The position numbers and the translations under genes are program-made. Below are positions 17,145 through 26,557 of a stretch of DNA of 64,000 nt, piece by piece (position 1 is the first letter of the stretch; every line of letters starts with the position of its first letter). This DNA is from Pseudomonadota bacterium (GTDB taxonomy: Bacteria > Desulfobacterota > Desulfobulbia > Desulfobulbales > CALZHT01). The stretch spans positions 1 through 64,000 of the forward strand of contig JAHJJF010000041.1 of assembly GCA_018823135.1 (NCBI GenBank). The letters run 5' to 3'. The notes under the pieces are model-generated. The model was not told the DNA's origin. It did not search any database and saw only the letters and a list, made by a program, of their open reading frames with translations.

Positions 17145-17656
17145 GTTTTATTCCTTGTTTTTTTGGTGAAAAGATAAATTATGTTCGAGGCAACCGGGTA
17201 CGCAAGCGAAACGCAAAATGTGTCCCTGGTTTGGGTTCCGCCTAAAAAAATCGTTGCAGGCATGTTGCATAACCATAAATTTGGGGGTGTTGTTGTCATA
17301 TTGCTATACATTTATCGAAAATGTAAATACTTTTATATGCACTAGTTGTTGTTGGCCAGTTTATTTTGTGTTATGGTGGCAACGACTTGCCAATATAGCA
17401 GGTCGATTTGGTTTTTCAATAACTATTTCCCCGTACTTTCAAAGGGTGTGGCGAGGTTGTTCTCGAGTTGTTGTTTGCGGAGCGGCAGTTTTGCCGGAAA
17501 TTGTTGTCTGCTATGCGTCGATATTGGCTTTAGGTTTGGGCTTTCGGCAAAGTATTAAACGGTTGCCGGACATTTGTGCAGGCGTTACTCCTTGGCCGTT
17601 TTGATTTTACTGTGGTACTTTTTGTGGCAATATTGCCAGTAATCAAATCTCATTTT
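17145..17656. other. Divergent control region between glnA and nrpR
   Basis: 512 bp without a credible gene. It contains a perfect palindrome at 17307-17325 and AT-rich flanks suitable for divergent promoters. No consensus sigma-54 element (TGGCAC-N5-TTGC) in the correct spacing was found on either strand. Confidence 0.6.
17307..17325. promoter_or_regulatory. 19-bp palindrome between glnA and nrpR, candidate operator
   Basis: TACATTTATCGAAAATGTA: perfect 7-bp arms with a 5-nt centre. It lies 163 bp upstream of glnA and 332 bp upstream of nrpR. Its form fits a dimeric regulator; NrpR is the obvious candidate (inference). It does not match the methanogen NrpR operators GGAA-N6-TTCC or GGTA-N6-TACC. 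Confidence 0.45.
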
Positions 17657-18691
17657 ATGAACGAAAAAATTGAAAAGAAGGAACTGGCTATCTTGCGTCT
17701 GTTGGAAAAATCGGATTCTCCCTTGACCAGTTCAAGGTTGACGGAGAGCCTCAAGACCATGGGATTTGAAGTCAGCGAGAGGACGACCCGGCATTATTGC
17801 AAGGAACTGGACAGCAGGGGGCTTACAGAAAATTTAGGCAAACGGGGCAGGAAGATCACCGAATTCGGCCGGAATGAGCTGGGTTCCGCCAGGGTTTTTG
17901 ACAAGGTAGGTTTTCTTTCGGGTCGGATAGACCAATTGACCTACAGAATGAGTTTTGATCTGGCCAGAAAGAGCGGGACGGTCATTGCTAATATCAGTAT
18001 CGTTGATGCTGATCTGTTGCACAGGTTGGTCGGACAGATCCAGCGAGTGTATGCAAGCGGTTATGGATTGGGCAGGATGATGGCCCTGTTCGGGCCGGGG
18101 GAGCGACCGGGAGGGATTGAGGTTCCGCCGGGGATGATCGGGATGGCGACGGTCTGTTCCATTACTTTGAACGGGGTTTTGCTGGCGCAGGGCGTGCCGG
18201 CCCATTCGAAATTTGGCGGACTCCTTGAAATACGTGGCGGTAAGCCGGCAAGATTCGTGGAGATCATCAAATATGAAGGAACCAGTCTTGACCCCCTGGA
18301 GATTTTTATCAAGGGCGGGATGACCAATGTGCTGGGGGCGATCGAGAGCGGCAACGGCCGGATCGGCGTGGGTTTTCGTGAGCTTCCGGCCGACAGTCGC
18401 GCTCATGTGCTTAAGCTCAACGGCAAACTGGAAAAGGCTGGTCTTGGTGGTTTTATGCTGATCGGTTGGCCGGGGCAACCGTTGCTGGAGGTGCCGGTCA
18501 ATGAAGGCCGGATCGGGGCGATCGTTATCGGTGGGCTTAATCCGGCCGCGACCTTGGAGGAGACCGGGGTAAAGGTCGGTTCCCGAGCCCTGGCCGGGAT
18601 GATAGAGTATGAGAGGTTTTTCAATTTTACCGAAATGGACGACCGGATCAATAAATTGCGGGAGTCTGTAGGCAGGAGAGCGGAAGCCTGA
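17657..18691 (+). CDS. NrpR-type nitrogen regulator (winged helix + DUF128)
   Basis: 344 aa from the ATG at 17657 (MNEKIEKKELAILRLLEK). An N-terminal winged helix-turn-helix (about 1-80; RLTESLKTMGFEVSERTTRHYCKELDSRGL) is followed by a DUF128/NrpR effector domain (about 90-320). Archaeal NrpR represses nitrogen genes and is released by 2-oxoglutarate. This protein has one recognisable effector domain, whereas some archaeal forms carry two. The next upstream in-frame start would add 27 hydrophobic residues and is unlikely. Its position beside glnA, gdhA and glt strongly supports a nitrogen-regulatory role. Confidence 0.85.
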   Translation: MNEKIEKKELAILRLLEKSDSPLTSSRLTESLKTMGFEVSERTTRHYCKELDSRGLTENLGKRGRKITEFGRNELGSARVFDKVGFLSGRIDQLTYRMSFDLARKSGTVIANISIVDADLLHRLVGQIQRVYASGYGLGRMMALFGPGERPGGIEVPPGMIGMATVCSITLNGVLLAQGVPAHSKFGGLLEIRGGKPARFVEIIKYEGTSLDPLEIFIKGGMTNVLGAIESGNGRIGVGFRELPADSRAHVLKLNGKLEKAGLGGFMLIGWPGQPLLEVPVNEGRIGAIVIGGLNPAATLEETGVKVGSRALAGMIEYERFFNFTEMDDRINKLRESVGRRAEA

Positions 18692-18923: not shown

Positions 18924-20243
18924 ATGGAATCTTTACTGACATTTCCCAAAGGCGGGGTGCATCCGCCGGAAGCAAAAGAACTGACTGCCGATCTCCCGGT
19001 TGAGGAGATGGTTGTTTCTGCTGAACTGGAGATCATCCTCGGTCAGCATATCGGTGCTCCCTGCACTCCGACTGTTCTGCTCAAGGATCACGTTGCAGAA
19101 GGCGCCATGATCGGTGAGGTGGTCAAGGGTCTTGGTGTCCCGCTGCATGCGCCGGCTGCCGGCACCATCAAGTCTTTTGGAATGTCCGCACATCCCATGC
19201 GGGTCAGCGCTCCATCCATTACCATTAAAACAGACCCGGATGCTTTTCCCCGCCAATACGAAAAAAGCGACTGGCAACCTTTAAGCGCTGAAGAGTTGCT
19301 CAAAAAAGTCCATGGTGCCGGCATCGTCGGGGTTGGTGGAGCCGGTTTTCCGACCCATGTCAAACTGAATCCTCCGCCGAATAATCCGGTTGATACCCTG
19401 ATCTTAAACGGCGCTGAATGTGAGCCCTATATCACGGCCGATTACCGGCAGATGCTTGAAGCCGGGGCCGAGATCGTTGAGGGCGCCAAGATAATCCTGA
19501 AAATCCTTGGCATCAAAAAATGCCTGATCGGGATCGAGAACAACAAGCCGGAAGCGATCAAGAGAATGACTGCGGCGGCTGCGGCGGCTGCGACCACTGA
19601 ATATCAGATATCTGTCCAGACCCTGCAGGTCAAGTATCCGCAAGGCTCCGAGAAACAGCTGATCCAGACCCTGACCGGCCGCAAGGTCCCGGCTTTCGCC
19701 CTGCCTTCGGCGGTCGGAGTGGTGGTCCACAACGTCAGCACCACCAAGGCCATCTATGACGCGATCGTACTCGGCAAACCCCTTTACGAAAAAATCGTCA
19801 CCATCTCCGGCAAGGGCATCAAGCGGCCGGCCAATCTAAGGGTGAAGGTCGGGACCAGGATCAGCGATATCGTTGATTATCTCGGCGGAGTCACCCCTGA
19901 ACTTTCCAAGATCATCATGGGCGGCCCGATGATGGGTTTCGCCGTATCGTCCCTTGATATTCCGGTTACCAAGACTACTTCATCAATCCTGTTCCTCAGC
20001 GAGGAAGAGATCGATACCAGTCCGCATTCCCAGTGCATTCGCTGCGGTTGGTGCCTGGAGGCTTGCCCGATGGGGCTTGAGCCCAAGGAAATAGCCATTC
20101 ATGTCGAAGCCGGCAGGCCCGAGGGTACCGGCCAGTTCGGGGTTTTTGAGTGTTTCGAGTGTGGTTGCTGCGCCTATGTCTGCCCGGCCAAACGGCCGCT
20201 GGTGCAGTTTATCCGGCTGGCTAAAATGAAAGCGAAGCACTAA
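18924..20243 (+). CDS. rnfC: Rnf complex subunit C (NADH/FMN and Fe-S subunit)
   Basis: 439 aa. N-terminal RnfC signature FPKGGVHPPEAKELT, NADH/FMN-binding loops (GIVGVGGAGFPTHVKL; LNGAECEPYITADYR) and two C-terminal [4Fe-4S] motifs (CIRCGWCLEACPMG; CFECGCCAYVCPAKRP). It is the cytoplasmic entry/exit point for NADH in the ferredoxin:NAD oxidoreductase. First gene of the rnfCDGEAB-apbE operon. There is no recognisable ribosome-binding site before the ATG at 18924, but the family N-terminus fits this start. Full length without the long C-terminal repeat extension of gammaproteobacterial RnfC. Confidence 0.95.
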   Translation: MESLLTFPKGGVHPPEAKELTADLPVEEMVVSAELEIILGQHIGAPCTPTVLLKDHVAEGAMIGEVVKGLGVPLHAPAAGTIKSFGMSAHPMRVSAPSITIKTDPDAFPRQYEKSDWQPLSAEELLKKVHGAGIVGVGGAGFPTHVKLNPPPNNPVDTLILNGAECEPYITADYRQMLEAGAEIVEGAKIILKILGIKKCLIGIENNKPEAIKRMTAAAAAAATTEYQISVQTLQVKYPQGSEKQLIQTLTGRKVPAFALPSAVGVVVHNVSTTKAIYDAIVLGKPLYEKIVTISGKGIKRPANLRVKVGTRISDIVDYLGGVTPELSKIIMGGPMMGFAVSSLDIPVTKTTSSILFLSEEEIDTSPHSQCIRCGWCLEACPMGLEPKEIAIHVEAGRPEGTGQFGVFECFECGCCAYVCPAKRPLVQFIRLAKMKAKH

Positions 20244-20271: not shown

Positions 20272-21336
20272 ATTAAACAGCAAGAATCGGATAATCAGCC
20301 CCAGACTTTGCTGAGGGGATTATGGAAGGTTTCCGTTTCCCCCCACGTTCGGAGCAACGAGTCGGTTGAGAAGATCATGTGGACCGTGGTGGCCTGCCTG
20401 GTACCGCCTCTAGTTCTGTCGGTGTTCATTTTCGGGATTCAGACCCTGATCATCACCGTGGTGAGCGTGATCAGCTGTGTGGCGGTTGAAGCTATCAGCC
20501 AGAAATGCCTTGGCCGCAAGATCACGGTCCGGGATGGCAGTGCGGTGATCACCGGCATGCTGATCGCTTTTGTGATCCCGCCCGGAGTTAACTATCTGCT
20601 GCCGGTACTGGGCGCCGTAATGGCGATCTACATCGGCAAACATCTGCTGGGCGGGATCGGCTACAATATCTTTAATCCGGCCTTGCTGGCCCGGGCTTTT
20701 ATGGTTGCCACCTTCCCGGTCGCCATGACTTCGGCCTGGCTACCGCCGCTGCAGGATATGGCGATCTTTTCCTATCTTGGCACGCCGCTTGATGCTATCA
20801 CAACTGCCACGCCACTGGCCCTTATCAAGGAACAGGGAATGGCCGCCTTCACCGCCCAGTATGGCGCGGCGCCCAATTTCTACACCGATTTTTTTCTGGG
20901 CTGGCGTCCCGGCTGTATCGGCGAGACTTCCGGTCTGCTGATCGTTCTTGGCGGCCTCTATCTGCTTTATCGTGGTTATATCACCTGGCATATTCCGGTT
21001 TCGGTTATCGGCAGTGTAGCCCTGCTGTCCTGGGCTTTCGGCGGCGAGACCCTGTTTAGTGGCGATCCGATCCTGGCCGTTCTTTCCGGTGGTATCCTGC
21101 TGGGTGCTTTTTTCATGGCCAATGATTATGTTACCTGTCCGACCAACAAGAAGGGTCAGCTGATTTATGGGATTGGTATCGGGGTTCTTACTGTGCTGAT
21201 CCGTCTCAAGGGCGGCTATCCAGAGGGGATCTGTTATGCGATCCTTCTGATGAATCCGGTAAGTTCGGTTTTCGATAACTGGTTCAAACCCCAGCGTTTC
21301 GCGCCGCCGCTTCCCCTGCAGGGAGGTGAGAAATGA
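20272..21336 (+). CDS. rnfD: Rnf complex subunit D (membrane, covalent FMN)
   Basis: A polytopic membrane protein of the NqrB/RnfD family. SPHVRSNESVEKIMW begins the conserved part; multiple membrane helices follow; the flavinylation site corresponds to ITTATPLALI. No ATG lies near the start. A TTG at 20308 lacks a ribosome site, whereas an AAGGAG (20259-20264) sits 7 nt before an in-frame ATT at 20272, giving 354 aa. I favour ATT as a rare start, with TTG 20308 (342 aa) as the alternative. The 3' end overlaps rnfG by 4 nt. Confidence 0.88.
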   Translation: MKQQESDNQPQTLLRGLWKVSVSPHVRSNESVEKIMWTVVACLVPPLVLSVFIFGIQTLIITVVSVISCVAVEAISQKCLGRKITVRDGSAVITGMLIAFVIPPGVNYLLPVLGAVMAIYIGKHLLGGIGYNIFNPALLARAFMVATFPVAMTSAWLPPLQDMAIFSYLGTPLDAITTATPLALIKEQGMAAFTAQYGAAPNFYTDFFLGWRPGCIGETSGLLIVLGGLYLLYRGYITWHIPVSVIGSVALLSWAFGGETLFSGDPILAVLSGGILLGAFFMANDYVTCPTNKKGQLIYGIGIGVLTVLIRLKGGYPEGICYAILLMNPVSSVFDNWFKPQRFAPPLPLQGGEK

Positions 21337-22226
21337 AAGATATTCTCACCATAGTTTTCCGGCTGACCGTCACCTGTCTGGTCGCCGGGGTGATCATGGG
21401 TGGCGGTTTTGTGCTGACCAATAAGGCCAAGCAGGATAACGAGCATAAAAATGAGCAGCGGGTGATGCTCAGCCTTCTTGGTTATTCAAAAAGCAATCCG
21501 GCCCCGCAGGCCATGGCGCTTCACGAGATCTATCGTTATGTGGTATCCGAAGGCGAGAATCTGTCGGTGGCATATCTGCTGCCGGCGAATAATGGTTTTA
21601 CCTTTGTCAACATTGGTCTGGACGGTAGATTCCTGAGCCGGCATCCGGTGGCCATTTCCGAAGAGCAGGTGCTCAAGGGCGGTGACCGTGATACCGCTAT
21701 TATAGCGGCGCTCGGCCCCGGCAAGTCGATCCGTTTTGCCGATCAGACTATTGTGGTGACCAACGGCGGCAAGCGGCAGGCCTACCTGCTGCCCGGTGAG
21801 TTTACCGGTTTCAAGACCTTCATCAAGGTGATTCTGGCCGTCGATCAGGATTTTGCCGTTATGGGTCTTGAGATCATGGAGCACGAAGAGGATCCCGGTC
21901 TTGGCGGCGAGATAGTCCAGGATTATTTCAAGGGCCAGTTCACCGGCAAAGACTTCGCGACCATCAAGAAGATCAAGGTGGCGAAGCTACCTCTACCGGA
22001 TGAGTATCAGCAGGCTCTTGAGGCTGACAAGAACGGCTTAAACGAGGCAGAGGTCGCCAGGATCAGGGCCCTTTACAGTGACAAGGATATCTACGCCCTG
22101 ACCGGCGCCACCATCTCCAGCCGGTCGGTGACCAACGGCGTCAAAGGCATCGTTAAAAAATTCGCTTACCGGATGTCGGTCCTTGACCGGGTTCTCGACA
22201 AACAGCAGATAGCGGTCCCCTTTTGA
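21333..22226 (+). CDS. rnfG: Rnf complex subunit G (periplasmic covalent FMN subunit)
   Basis: 297 aa: one N-terminal membrane segment (about 6-28) and a periplasmic FMN-binding domain. The flavinylation motif is YALTGATISSRSVTNGVK near residue 255, the threonine target of ApbE. It relays electrons at the outer face of the Rnf complex. Longer than many RnfG proteins (about 200 aa) because of an insert before the FMN domain. ATG at 21333 overlaps the rnfD stop and has GGAGG just upstream, so the genes are coupled. Confidence 0.93.
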   Translation: MKDILTIVFRLTVTCLVAGVIMGGGFVLTNKAKQDNEHKNEQRVMLSLLGYSKSNPAPQAMALHEIYRYVVSEGENLSVAYLLPANNGFTFVNIGLDGRFLSRHPVAISEEQVLKGGDRDTAIIAALGPGKSIRFADQTIVVTNGGKRQAYLLPGEFTGFKTFIKVILAVDQDFAVMGLEIMEHEEDPGLGGEIVQDYFKGQFTGKDFATIKKIKVAKLPLPDEYQQALEADKNGLNEAEVARIRALYSDKDIYALTGATISSRSVTNGVKGIVKKFAYRMSVLDRVLDKQQIAVPF

Positions 22227-22255: not shown

Positions 22256-22882
22256 GTGGCTACTGACAAATCAAATTTCCAGCTGGTAATAAGCGGCATA
22301 TTAAACGAGAACCCGATCTTTCGGCTGGTTCTCTCGATGTGCCCGGCGGTCGGGATCAGCACGACGGTGATGAACGGCTTTCTGCTCGGCATTGCCGTGC
22401 TCTTTGTTCAGGTCTTTTCCAGCGTCACCATTTCCCTGATCAAGGACCTGATTCATCCGCGCATCAGGATCCCCACCTATACCCTGACTATTGCCACCTG
22501 GGTGACGATCATCGACATGGTGCTGGCCGCCTACCTCCCTGAAGCGTACGCCAAGATGGGTATCTTCGTGAAGCTGATCGTCGCCTTCGCCATTATCACC
22601 ATGCGGCTTGAGATGTTTGCCTGCAAGGAGAGTGTGACCGCTTCCTTCTGGGATGGTCTCGGCATGGGATTTGGCTTTCTGTTCGGAATGATGGCCCTCG
22701 GTTTTGTCCGGGAGCTGCTCGGTCTCGGTACTTTGCTGGGCTATGATGTCCTCGGTTTCAAACCTCTGTTGTTCTTTGTCCTGCCATTTGCCGGTTTTTT
22801 TGTTGTCGGTCTGATGATGGCATTTTTCAACTATATCGAGATCGTTTATAAACGAGCCAGAGAAAAAAGGGTTGAGATATGA
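22256..22882 (+). CDS. rnfE: Rnf complex subunit E (membrane)
   Basis: 208 aa, an integral membrane protein of the NqrD/RnfE family with six predicted helices (FLLGIAVLFVQVFSS; LTIATWVTIIDMVLAAYL). RnfE pairs with RnfA in opposite topology around a membrane Fe-S site. GTG start at 22256 with GGAGGA 4 nt upstream. The stop overlaps rnfA by 4 nt. Confidence 0.94.
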   Translation: MATDKSNFQLVISGILNENPIFRLVLSMCPAVGISTTVMNGFLLGIAVLFVQVFSSVTISLIKDLIHPRIRIPTYTLTIATWVTIIDMVLAAYLPEAYAKMGIFVKLIVAFAIITMRLEMFACKESVTASFWDGLGMGFGFLFGMMALGFVRELLGLGTLLGYDVLGFKPLLFFVLPFAGFFVVGLMMAFFNYIEIVYKRAREKRVEI

Positions 22883-23817
22883 AGACCATGACCATAATTA
22901 AAAGATCGCTGGCAGCTCTGCTGCTTTTGCTTGTCCTGCCGGCAATGGCTCAGGCGGAACTGATCAGCGGCAAGAGCTTCGGAGACGAGAACGAGATCAT
23001 CGTCAGCTTCTCAGCTGCGGTAAATCCTGCTGCCGCTGCTGATCCGGCCAATTACATCGTTTACGAAGAGCCGGACCCGGATATTCGTCTTAACCTTGAG
23101 AAGGTATTGGTCAGTGAAGATGCCCGCTCGGCGACTCTGGTTTTTACCGAGCCGCTCAATACTACCCAGACCCATATTGTTTCGGTGCGTGATATTGGCC
23201 CGACCGTTGAATCGTTCAAGGTCAGCAAGTCCTATATCGGCTACCTGCTCTCCATTCTGATCGGGGCATTGCTGATCAACAACTTTGTTTTCACCAAATA
23301 TCTCGGCCTCTGTGTATTTTTCGGGACCTCCAAACGTAAGGACACGGCCAAGGGCATGGGGCTTACCTTTACCTTCGTTATTGTGGTCAGCGCGATCATG
23401 AGCTGGTTCTTCTATCAGTTTGTCATGAAGCCGTTCCATCTTGATTTCCTGCAGATCGTCGTCTTCATCGGCCTGGTATCCCTTACCGTCCAGGCGGTCG
23501 ATACCATTCTCCGCAAGGTCAACCCGATCCTCTTTAACGCCTTCGGGGTTTATCTGGTCCTGGTCATCGCCAACTGTATCATTATTGCAGTGCCGCTGAT
23601 CCTGGCCGATTATGAATATAATTTCTTTGAGTCTTTGATGCTCTCTCTTGGGGCGGGCGGCGGTTTTCTGCTGGCCCTTTACCTGATGAGTTCGGTGCGC
23701 GAGCGGATGGAGTTCGCCAATATTCCCCCGACCTTCAAGGGCATCCCGATCGCCTTTGTCGTAGCCGGGCAGTTTGCCCTGGCTTTCCTCGGTTTTTCCG
23801 GGCTGTCACTTTTTTAG
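22879..23817 (+). CDS. rnfA: Rnf complex subunit A with exported Ig-like N-terminal extension
   Basis: 312 aa, against about 190 for ordinary RnfA. Residues 1-26 look like a cleavable signal peptide (LAALLLLLVLPAMAQA). Residues about 27-115 form a beta-rich segment resembling a bacterial Ig-like (SbsA-type) domain (ANYIVYEEP, SATLVFTEPL, THIVSVRDI). From about 118 the canonical RnfA core follows (YIGYLLSILIGALLINNFV, KYLGLCVFFGTSKR). The reading frame is continuous and starts at an ATG overlapping the rnfE stop (ATGA), so this is a genuine fusion and not a misplaced start. The extension should sit in the periplasm (inference), perhaps to contact RnfG or an electron carrier. Confidence 0.9.
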   Translation: MKTMTIIKRSLAALLLLLVLPAMAQAELISGKSFGDENEIIVSFSAAVNPAAAADPANYIVYEEPDPDIRLNLEKVLVSEDARSATLVFTEPLNTTQTHIVSVRDIGPTVESFKVSKSYIGYLLSILIGALLINNFVFTKYLGLCVFFGTSKRKDTAKGMGLTFTFVIVVSAIMSWFFYQFVMKPFHLDFLQIVVFIGLVSLTVQAVDTILRKVNPILFNAFGVYLVLVIANCIIIAVPLILADYEYNFFESLMLSLGAGGGFLLALYLMSSVRERMEFANIPPTFKGIPIAFVVAGQFALAFLGFSGLSLF

Positions 23818-23838: not shown

Positions 23839-24711
23839 ATGGATCCAGTATTAGTTAAAATAGCCCTGGGCGGTGTTGCGATGCTCGTTTGTATCGGGCT
23901 TTTCTTCGGCATCGGTCTGGCCATGGCGGCTCACAAATTTGCCGTGGAGGTCAATCCTCTGGTCGAAGAGGTGCTCGAGTCTCTGGCCGGGGCTCAGTGC
24001 GGCGGTTGTGGTTATGCCGGCTGCGAGGGCTATGCCCTTGCGGTGGTCAACGACCCGGAAGTGCCGCCCAATCTCTGCTTTCCCGGCAAGGAGAAGGTTG
24101 CCGCGCGGGTTGCCGATCTTACCGGCAAGAAGATGGCGGCAATGGAAGACATGATCGCCACGGTCCGCTGTTCACGGATCGAAGGGCGGGTCAGCCATAA
24201 GCATGAATATATCGGTTTTGCTTCATGTACGGCTGCCAATCTCGGTTTCGGTGGTCCGTCCGCCTGTAACTATTCATGCATCGGCCTTGGTGAGTGCGCC
24301 CAGGTCTGCCCCTTTGACGCCATCACCATGGTCGAGAGCTTTCCAGTGATCAATCCGGATAAATGCGTGAGTTGCGGGATCTGCGTGAAAGCCTGTCCCA
24401 AAAAGGTGATTGAACTGATGTCTCTGGCGGCGAGAGTGTTTGTGCCTTGCAGCACCAAAGATCTTGGCAAGAATGTTATGAAGGTCTGTGGGGTCGGCTG
24501 CATTTCCTGTCAGAAATGTGTCAAGGTCTGTCCGGCCGAGGCAGTCAGCTCAGACGGCGGCATCATCAGGATCGATAACCAGAAATGCCTCGAGTACGGC
24601 GCAAGTTGTGAAGAAATATGTGTGGCGAAATGCCCCCGCAAGATATTCAGAAAATATGATGGCCGCCAGGTGATCTCCAGAAAAGCCGTTGGCCTTAAGA
24701 TGGCATCATAG
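23839..24711 (+). CDS. rnfB: Rnf complex subunit B (multi Fe-S ferredoxin-binding subunit)
   Basis: 290 aa. An N-terminal membrane anchor (about 5-27) is followed by a four-Cys cluster domain (CGGCGYAGCEGYALAVV...C) and a C-terminal array of ferredoxin motifs (CIGLGECAQVCP; CVSCGICVKACP; CISCQKCVKVCP; CLEYGASCEEICVAKCP). It accepts electrons from reduced ferredoxin in the cytoplasm. Last structural rnf gene; apbE follows after 73 nt. Confidence 0.94.
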   Translation: MDPVLVKIALGGVAMLVCIGLFFGIGLAMAAHKFAVEVNPLVEEVLESLAGAQCGGCGYAGCEGYALAVVNDPEVPPNLCFPGKEKVAARVADLTGKKMAAMEDMIATVRCSRIEGRVSHKHEYIGFASCTAANLGFGGPSACNYSCIGLGECAQVCPFDAITMVESFPVINPDKCVSCGICVKACPKKVIELMSLAARVFVPCSTKDLGKNVMKVCGVGCISCQKCVKVCPAEAVSSDGGIIRIDNQKCLEYGASCEEICVAKCPRKIFRKYDGRQVISRKAVGLKMAS

Positions 24712-24784
24712 CCATCCAGATCGGAATGGTGGATCTTTTCAAGTTCACCCAAATTGGTTATTTTATTTCCACAAGAGGAAGATG

Positions 24785-25831
24785 ATGAAGATTTCGACAA
24801 AGAACCAAGCAACCTGTGACGAGAAGAGAAGATCCTTCCTGAAACTTTCCGGCCTCCTCGGACTCGGGGCTGCTACCGCTAGCCTGTTGTCGGTTGCGCA
24901 GGCCGAGGCGGTTCTCTTCGGCAAGAAGGAATATAAAGTCTCCAGGACCGGACTGGCGATGGGGACCTATGTGTCAATGACCGCTATTCATTCCTCCCGG
25001 GATGAAGCCGAGAACGCCATCGGCCTGGCCTTTGAAGAGATGGATCGTTTGAGCCGGATTCTTAGTCGCTATGAAAGCAGTTCGCCGGTCAGCGACCTCA
25101 ACAGTGTCGGCTACCTGAACTCGGCCCCCCAGGAGGTTCTTGAACTGGTGGCCAGGTCGATCTATTACAATCGCCAGACCAATGGCGCTTTTGATGTTAC
25201 CGTGAAACCACTGGTCGATCTCTATAAGGATAGTTTCAAATCAGGGCACAGTCCGGCCGAGGCGGAAGTGCAGGCCGTTTTGCAGGGAGTTGGTGCTGAG
25301 CATCTGCGTTTTGAGGGAGGCAATATCCGCTTTGAGCGTGAAAACATGGGCATCACCCTCGATGGCATCGCCAAGGGCTATATAGTTGACCGGGCTTCGG
25401 AAATCCTGGCGGGAAAGGGGGTAGCCAATCACCTGATCAACGCTGGCGGGGATATTAGAACCAGCGGGGCTGCCGCCAATGGCAAGCCATGGACTGTGGC
25501 CATCCAGGACCCGGCCAAGCAGAAAGAATACCCGGATTTGATCCGGATGACCAGCGGGGCCATTGCCACTTCCGGAAACTACGAGATCTTCTACGATCGC
25601 GAGAAGATGTTCCACCATATCGTTAACAGCCGCACCGGTCTTTCACCTGAATTGTCTGCCAGTGTAACGGTCAAGGCCGGAACGGTAATGGATGCCGATG
25701 CTTTATCGACCAGCGTTTTCGTCATGCAGCCCAGCGCCGGGGTAAGTTTCATCAACGGTCAGCCCGGCTGTGAGTGTCTGGTGGTAGGAAAAGACGGCCT
25801 GATCAGCAGATCAGTGGGTTGGAAATCCTGA
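24785..25831 (+). CDS. apbE: FAD:protein FMN transferase
   Basis: 348 aa from ATG 24785, preceded by GAGG at 24774. An adjacent in-frame ATG at 24782 is equally possible. A Tat signal (KRRSFLKLSGLLGLGAATASLLS) is followed by the ApbE domain: GTYVSMTAI, LDGIAKGYIVD, NAGGDIRTSG and GTVMDADALSTSVFVM. It transfers FMN from FAD to threonine in RnfD and RnfG, which explains its place at the end of the rnf operon. It probably acts after Tat export. A terminator follows at 25937. Confidence 0.95.
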   Translation: MKISTKNQATCDEKRRSFLKLSGLLGLGAATASLLSVAQAEAVLFGKKEYKVSRTGLAMGTYVSMTAIHSSRDEAENAIGLAFEEMDRLSRILSRYESSSPVSDLNSVGYLNSAPQEVLELVARSIYYNRQTNGAFDVTVKPLVDLYKDSFKSGHSPAEAEVQAVLQGVGAEHLRFEGGNIRFERENMGITLDGIAKGYIVDRASEILAGKGVANHLINAGGDIRTSGAAANGKPWTVAIQDPAKQKEYPDLIRMTSGAIATSGNYEIFYDREKMFHHIVNSRTGLSPELSASVTVKAGTVMDADALSTSVFVMQPSAGVSFINGQPGCECLVVGKDGLISRSVGWKS

Positions 25832-25984: not shown

Positions 25985-26557
25985 CTATTGAACTTTTTCA
26001 ATCGCCGTTATGACGTAAACCATCCCGCCGGTAAAACGCGACGGCACTTGTTCGTACGTGACATTGACCTTTTCGCCGGGAGAGGGCACCCAGCCATCAG
26101 GGACGGATTGCATACCCCTTTTTTTATCCATGGCAATGATTTGCCCGGTCTCCGGGAATTCGAATTCAATTCTTTTTCTTCCAACCTCTGTTATGGTGCC
26201 GGTTGCCGGATTGCTCAACTCCTTGCGATTCGGGTCTTTTTTGACGAGCTTCAAATCGGATACGGCAAGAATCGTTCTGCCATCACGCATCGCCTTTTTA
26301 TAGAAATTGACCGTAACCGTATCTCCTGTCTGTGGCCGGTAATCAGCAGGATCGTATACAGTCTCGCGCCCGGGATTATACTTGATTCCGTCGGTTTCAC
26401 CGGTTGCCACGAGAATAAATCCTGTTAAACCGGTTTCTTTCACCACCCCTGTTTTGGTGCTTTCCGATTCATCAGCCAGAACTGATAACGGGGAGAAGAT
26501 AAAAGCCAATACAACAATCATGTTCAGTAGCTTTCTGAATCCATACAATTTTTCCAT
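25985..26557 (-). CDS. Exported protein of unknown function
   Basis: 190 aa with a clear signal peptide (about 1-29, ending SVLADES). The mature part has two similar beta-rich halves: each has a TGxI/TGFI strand, a G-D/E-x-V-x-V turn (TGDTVTVNFYK; PGEKVNVTYEQ) and a closing I(L/T)A strand, suggesting tandem OB-fold-like modules. No enzyme motif is visible. It stands alone between the convergent rnf operon and a hybrid kinase, with a strong ribosome site (GGAGGAACAA) before the ATG. Confidence 0.7.
   Translation of the reverse strand: MEKLYGFRKLLNMIVVLAFIFSPLSVLADESESTKTGVVKETGLTGFILVATGETDGIKYNPGRETVYDPADYRPQTGDTVTVNFYKKAMRDGRTILAVSDLKLVKKDPNRKELSNPATGTITEVGRKRIEFEFPETGQIIAMDKKRGMQSVPDGWVPSPGEKVNVTYEQVPSRFTGGMVYVITAIEKVQ

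Follow-up and report, generated by a model that had tools for sequence, protein, structure and literature searches.

The Rnf complex encoded in the window, by which we mean the whole stretch of 64,000 nucleotides analysed here, carries on its RnfA subunit an N-terminal extension that consists of a putative Sec signal peptide and an Ig-like domain. Computational analysis shows the fusion, its conservation, its predicted fold, the grouping of its carriers in a single clade and its co-occurrence with a long form of RnfG. This fusion architecture is close to certain, and a function for it is put forward as a testable proposal. We hold with moderate confidence that the complex represents a distinct Rnf sub-type, with a periplasmic scaffold for guiding the FMN domain that would be formed by the Ig domain of RnfA, the enlarged RnfG and RnfD. 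The host of the window belongs to the Desulfobulbales. The features on which the analysis rests are collected in Table 1.

Table 1. Features of the rnf operon and parts of the fused RnfA, with coordinates in the window.
Feature	Coordinates	Strand	Basis
rnfC	18924..20243	+	TIGR01945, 515.8 bits, cut-off 245.95
rnfD	20308..21336	+	TIGR01946, 328 bits, cut-off 207.05
rnfG, long form, 297 aa, flavin-attachment motif TGAT	21333..22226	+	FMN_bind PF04205
RnfG extra segment, about residues 45-140 (~95), largely absent from unfused RnfG	21465..21752	+	alignment
RnfG insertion, about residues 213-249 (~35), before TGAT	21969..22079	+	alignment
rnfE	22256..22882	+	PRK12405, 210.4 bits, cut-off 184
rnfA with N-terminal extension, 312 aa	22879..23817	+	continuous ORF and fused homologues
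Putative Sec signal peptide, residues 1-26, predicted cleavage AQA-E	22879..22956	+	sequence pattern
Predicted Ig-like (SbsC/Big_5-like) domain, residues 27-116	22957..23226	+	AF2, Foldseek, Big_5 matches in homologues
Conserved signature V-Y-E-E-P-D-P-D-I, residues 61-69	23059..23085	+	88 sequences
RnfA core, residues 118-312, six predicted TM helices	23230..23814	+	PF02508; alignment with solved RnfA
Cys145, equivalent of RnfA Cys25 (metal/[2Fe-2S] ligand)	23311..23313	+	alignment to 7zc6_A
Cys233, equivalent of RnfA Cys113 (metal/[2Fe-2S] ligand)	23575..23577	+	alignment to 7zc6_A
rnfB	23839..24711	+	NF005503, 436.2 bits, cut-off 252
apbE, FMN transferase	24689..25831	+	PF02424; ORF as listed

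The initial annotation had described rnfA as an uninterrupted frame that overlaps rnfE and places about 117 residues before a complete RnfA core. Direct inspection of the open reading frame confirmed its coordinates, its length and the overlap of 4 nt between the rnfA ATG (22879-22881) and the rnfE stop codon TGA (22880-22882). The Pfam Rnf-Nqr family (PF02508) matches residues 124-309 only (150.1 bits, cut-off 23.8), and in an alignment with the solved RnfA 7zc6_A residue 3 of the latter pairs with residue 123 of the query, which puts the start of the solved protein at about residue 121. Residues 1-118 are therefore an addition, of about 118 residues. The core cysteines that correspond to the metal/[2Fe-2S] ligands Cys25 (PMC9588780, PMC12174285) and Cys113 (PMC9588780) are both invariant in the RnfA alignment (A3). 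The fused copy is the sole RnfA found in its genome, the only other Rnf-Nqr protein there being RnfE, and rnfB, C, D, E and G are all encoded alongside it. The NCBIfam RnfA model TIGR01943 scores 195.2 bits, under its annotation threshold of 229.3, yet it is the top NCBIfam match, and the shortfall is read as divergence within RnfA because the core, the cysteines and the operon are all those of an Rnf. The RnfG and RnfE of the window likewise fall below the cut-offs of their TIGR models, and the three shortfalls together thus point to a divergent sub-type. Judged by core sequence, cysteines and operon, the complex is an Rnf. Identity with NqrE of a Na+-NQR was rejected: the nqrE model reaches 135.4 bits against a cut-off of 247.55, the protein falls in a separate clade, and the operon encodes RnfB and RnfC instead of NqrF and NqrA.

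Recurrence in related genomes had been named in the initial annotation as support for the claim and absence from all close relatives as its refutation; the fusion was found in close relatives as well as across the class. It is present in 16 of 57 relatives (17 of 58 genomes with that of the window), the 16 proteins having 62-83% identity along almost the whole of the 312 residues, and a query made of the extension alone matches 86 of the 258 genomes of the class. When 84,980 species genomes were scanned, 80 loci were kept (L031-L110), most of them from Desulfobulbales, some from elsewhere in the Desulfobacterota and three that bear the label Pseudomonadota in the tree; the spread beyond Desulfobacterota was only sampled. 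The extension runs in-frame into the RnfA core at nearly every locus, the exceptions being a broken locus or contig ends. Cultured carriers include Desulfofustis glycolicus and Desulfobulbus elongatus. A clean gap separates the two forms in a sample of the phylum, with 365-538 bits for fused matches and at most 213 for unfused ones, and in the tree fused RnfA is a single clade (support 100/100) on a long branch, separate from unfused RnfA and from NqrE. For close and moderate pairs, dN/dS has a median of 0.35 in the Ig domain against 0.09 in the core; by this measure the extension is under purifying selection. As the fused frame recurs in relatives and its dN/dS is well below 1, such sequence comparison indicates that it did not originate by chance. 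A tblastn search of plasmids gave no match reaching 80% query coverage.

Some individual loci deserve mention in their own right. The three labelled Pseudomonadota (L088, L099 and L110) have fused RnfA on contigs labelled Gammaproteobacteria or Proteobacteria and nest in the Desulfobulbales-type clade, which reflects either horizontal transfer or mislabelled bins; the N-terminus of L110 seems signal-anchor-like. Desulfofustis sp. PB-SRB1 has an intact copy (L091) and a second rnf region (L107) with most genes in short fragments, due either to pseudogene formation or to sequencing errors. A fused-RnfA genome (G048, locus L174) also has a second, unfused Rnf, and the RnfB-like ORF of this second Rnf is of 711 aa.

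Residues 1-26 resemble a Sec signal peptide in their sequence pattern, and when a simple pattern was applied to 88 homologues 76 signals were of the cleavable type and 12 matched a lipobox. With L077 and L172 set aside as ambiguous, the lipobox is clear in about ten of the latter (LSGC, LAGC, LTGC and similar), all of them outside the Desulfobulbales subclade. The replacement of a cleavable signal by a lipoprotein signal in about ten relatives is an independent sign of export. Within the core, nine Lys/Arg residues lie in loops 1, 3 and 5 against one in loops 2 and 4 and the C-terminus, a distribution that places the N-terminus of RnfA outside, and an N-out RnfA fits the inverted arrangement of RnfA and RnfE (PMC12174285). 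The Ig domain would then be periplasmic. Both the signal peptide and the periplasmic location proposed in the initial annotation thus draw support, the former from the Sec-type pattern and the lipobox replacements and the latter from the lipobox alternatives and the positive-inside loop charges.

The domain itself was modelled by AF2 from 73 homologues as an Ig-like beta sandwich with a mean pLDDT of 93.9. Since the membrane core was poor in the full-length AF2 model (mean pLDDT 62.5), the fold search was made with the domain model only. The best matches in the PDB (Foldseek) were Ig domains of the S-layer protein SbsC with a TM score of up to 0.82, followed by Sap Ig domains (0.70-0.75) and then by CopC (about 0.6). 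Big_5 (PF13205) was matched at E <= 0.01 by 24 of the 73 homologues. The window's own domain scores 14.4 bits (E 0.063), below the gathering score of 23.6, and for this reason it is termed Ig-like by fold and not a member of Big_5; Pfam and NCBIfam searches with the window's extension alone gave no significant match, the kinship emerging only across relatives. The Ig-like fold suggested earlier is therefore upheld by the predicted structure and its SbsC and Sap matches, but not by Pfam for the window's own sequence. Across 88 sequences P67, D68 and I69 are invariant, E63 and D66 are conserved in at least 97% and E64 in 88%, and the signature V-x-E-E-x-D-P-D-I, with Phe34 and His99, is nearly invariant. 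This degree of conservation appears to exceed what an Ig core alone would need.

The gene order C-D-G-E-A-B is kept wherever the contig permits, with apbE often next. ApbE is likely to load FMN onto RnfG and RnfD, and its true start is probably further downstream than that of the listed ORF. Directly upstream of rnfC lies a gene for an NrpR-type regulator (NRD1_2 and winged helix; 17576-18691, + strand), and a secreted-looking protein of 190 aa with no Pfam match is encoded at 25985-26557 on the - strand. All complete RnfG proteins beside fused RnfA are of the long form (86 full-length matches, 280-309 aa), the remainder at fused loci being incomplete because they are cut or broken. RnfG at the unfused loci examined is mostly of 190-215 aa and is missing both periplasmic additions; two longer ORFs at such loci probably have over-extended starts. 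When other subunits were controlled for, the partial correlation of Ig domain distances was 0.32 with the RnfG extra segment and 0.42 with RnfD against -0.01 with the cytoplasmic RnfB, which is weak evidence of a link that could also reflect shared fast evolution.

These observations suggest how the extension might act. The RnfA core would insert with its N-terminus in the periplasm, so that a soluble domain placed before the first helix could be exported by means of a Sec signal peptide. In a published structure the N-terminal helix of RnfA is close to RnfG (PMC9588780), and RnfG would thus be the neighbour of a periplasmic domain fused to this helix. The exported SbsC/Big_5-like Ig domain may thus occupy the periplasmic face next to the stalk and flavin domain of RnfG, which in this sub-type always has the two additions, the shorter of them near the flavin site. 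The FMN of RnfG shuttles between the RnfA/E cluster and RnfD in Rnf and NQR structures (PMC12174285, PMC11889175), and a scaffold in which the Ig domain and the long RnfG (with RnfD) pack together could hold the FMN domain, or guide it, as it swings between RnfD and the [2Fe-2S] cluster of RnfA/E. We infer such a contact, and with it an effect on the shuttle; packing on RnfG or RnfD to position the shuttle would be the most economical reading. Docking onto RnfG, one half of a suggestion made in the initial annotation, gains indirect support from the constant presence of long RnfG and from the position of the RnfA helix. The fusion and the long RnfG have a single-clade origin, so that their co-occurrence counts as one event and may be coincidental, and a domain as generic as an Ig domain could interact with something else. 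Less probably, the Ig domain and the enlarged RnfG constitute a dedicated periplasmic module that gates or redirects the flavin shuttle in a structurally distinct Rnf of part of the Desulfobacterota; were this the case, the module might limit short-circuits or admit a periplasmic redox partner.

It is possible, if unlikely, that the extension serves chiefly for topogenesis, assembly or anchoring and leaves electron transfer untouched, the signal or lipid anchor enforcing the N-out orientation and the Ig domain serving as a folding or stability cap or as a tether to the envelope. The switching of relatives between cleavable and lipoprotein signals, the likeness of the fold to adhesive S-layer Ig domains and the faster evolution of the Ig domain relative to the core would all suit such a role. 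However, canonical RnfA goes N-out without a signal peptide, the conservation of VxEExDPDI goes far beyond the needs of a passive cap, and RnfG is enlarged in parallel.

Sulfate reducers and their relatives, to which the hosts belong, are often rich in cytochromes. The Ig domain might accordingly dock an electron carrier of the periplasm, for example a cytochrome, and link Rnf to periplasmic redox chemistry, as the other half of the docking suggestion had it, and in Methanosarcina a multihaem cytochrome does work together with Rnf (PMC12174285). This half did not hold up and is improbable: only 3 of 93 loci have multihaem genes close to the operon, no periplasmic electron carrier is consistently encoded nearby, the Ig domain has no haem motif and no conserved Cys motif, and a search for conserved neighbours found, beyond rnf and apbE, no accessory gene common to most loci, the largest neighbour clusters looking like spurious alternative-frame ORFs over the operon. 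Quite improbable, too, is the binding of a cation (Na+, Ca2+ or a transition metal) by the acidic signature and His99 at the periplasmic ion exit, with modulation of pumping or ion sensing as the outcome; the near invariance of the E/D cluster and His99 and the secondary fold matches to the copper protein CopC speak for it, but the CopC match is weaker than those to non-copper S-layer domains. A wrong start or an assembly artefact concealing an ordinary RnfA, for which the weak family matches of the window's domain alone could be cited, has a negligible probability and a misannotated start is ruled out, because the ATG overlaps the rnfE stop codon with the junction kept within a few nucleotides across most loci, the window is without a start codon between residue 103 (GTG, within the domain) and residue 131 (TTG, within the first helix), no alternative start was found that is conserved and has a ribosome-binding site, the extension is under purifying selection, and the fusion recurs through the class and in cultured and complete genomes such as that of Desulfosediminicola flagellatus (NZ_CP050698.1).

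Rnf is an ancient energy-converting complex, and a central debate concerns the way in which the RnfG flavin shuttle and the conformations of RnfA/E link the flow of electrons to the pumping of ions. With additional, conserved periplasmic parts on precisely these two subunits, RnfA and RnfG, the present natural variant offers a ready-made test of shuttle restraint. Rnf has been reported to be absent from Desulfobulbales (PMC10553843, S9 Fig legend), and this is contradicted in roughly one third of the genomes of the class that were searched. Desulfobulbales often encode an Rnf of divergent type, which standard cut-offs can miss.

The conserved domain architecture on RnfA has apparently gone undescribed so far. 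In open-access papers, searched by title and abstract, no RnfA N-terminal extension, Ig domain, fusion or signal peptide was found, the sole Rnf paper with the term 'Ig-like' using it of a toxin, and no Ig domain on RnfA was found in the solved Rnf structures. With the solved complexes (PDB 7zc6, 9eri and 8ahx) the Rnf of the window shares the six-helix core, at about 40% identity, both cluster cysteines and the partner genes rnfB, C, D, E and G. The solved RnfA proteins are of 190-191 aa without signal peptide or Ig domain, whereas fused RnfA has both, and their RnfG partners (189-237 aa) are shorter than that of the window. In Na+-NQR the NqrE core is homologous to the RnfA core, but NqrE is a chain of 198 aa without the extension and forms a separate clade; the flavin domain of NqrC (257 aa), too, is preceded by extra sequence, and the window's RnfG aligns with part of it. 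With the S-layer Ig domains of SbsC and Sap and with Big_5 the RnfA domain shares its predicted fold, at TM scores of 0.73-0.82, and sequence kinship is detectable in some fused-RnfA members. In SbsC and Sap, however, these domains are tandem repeats in surface proteins, whereas in RnfA the domain occurs once, as part of a membrane redox subunit, and the VxEExDPDI signature is private to the RnfA Ig domain.
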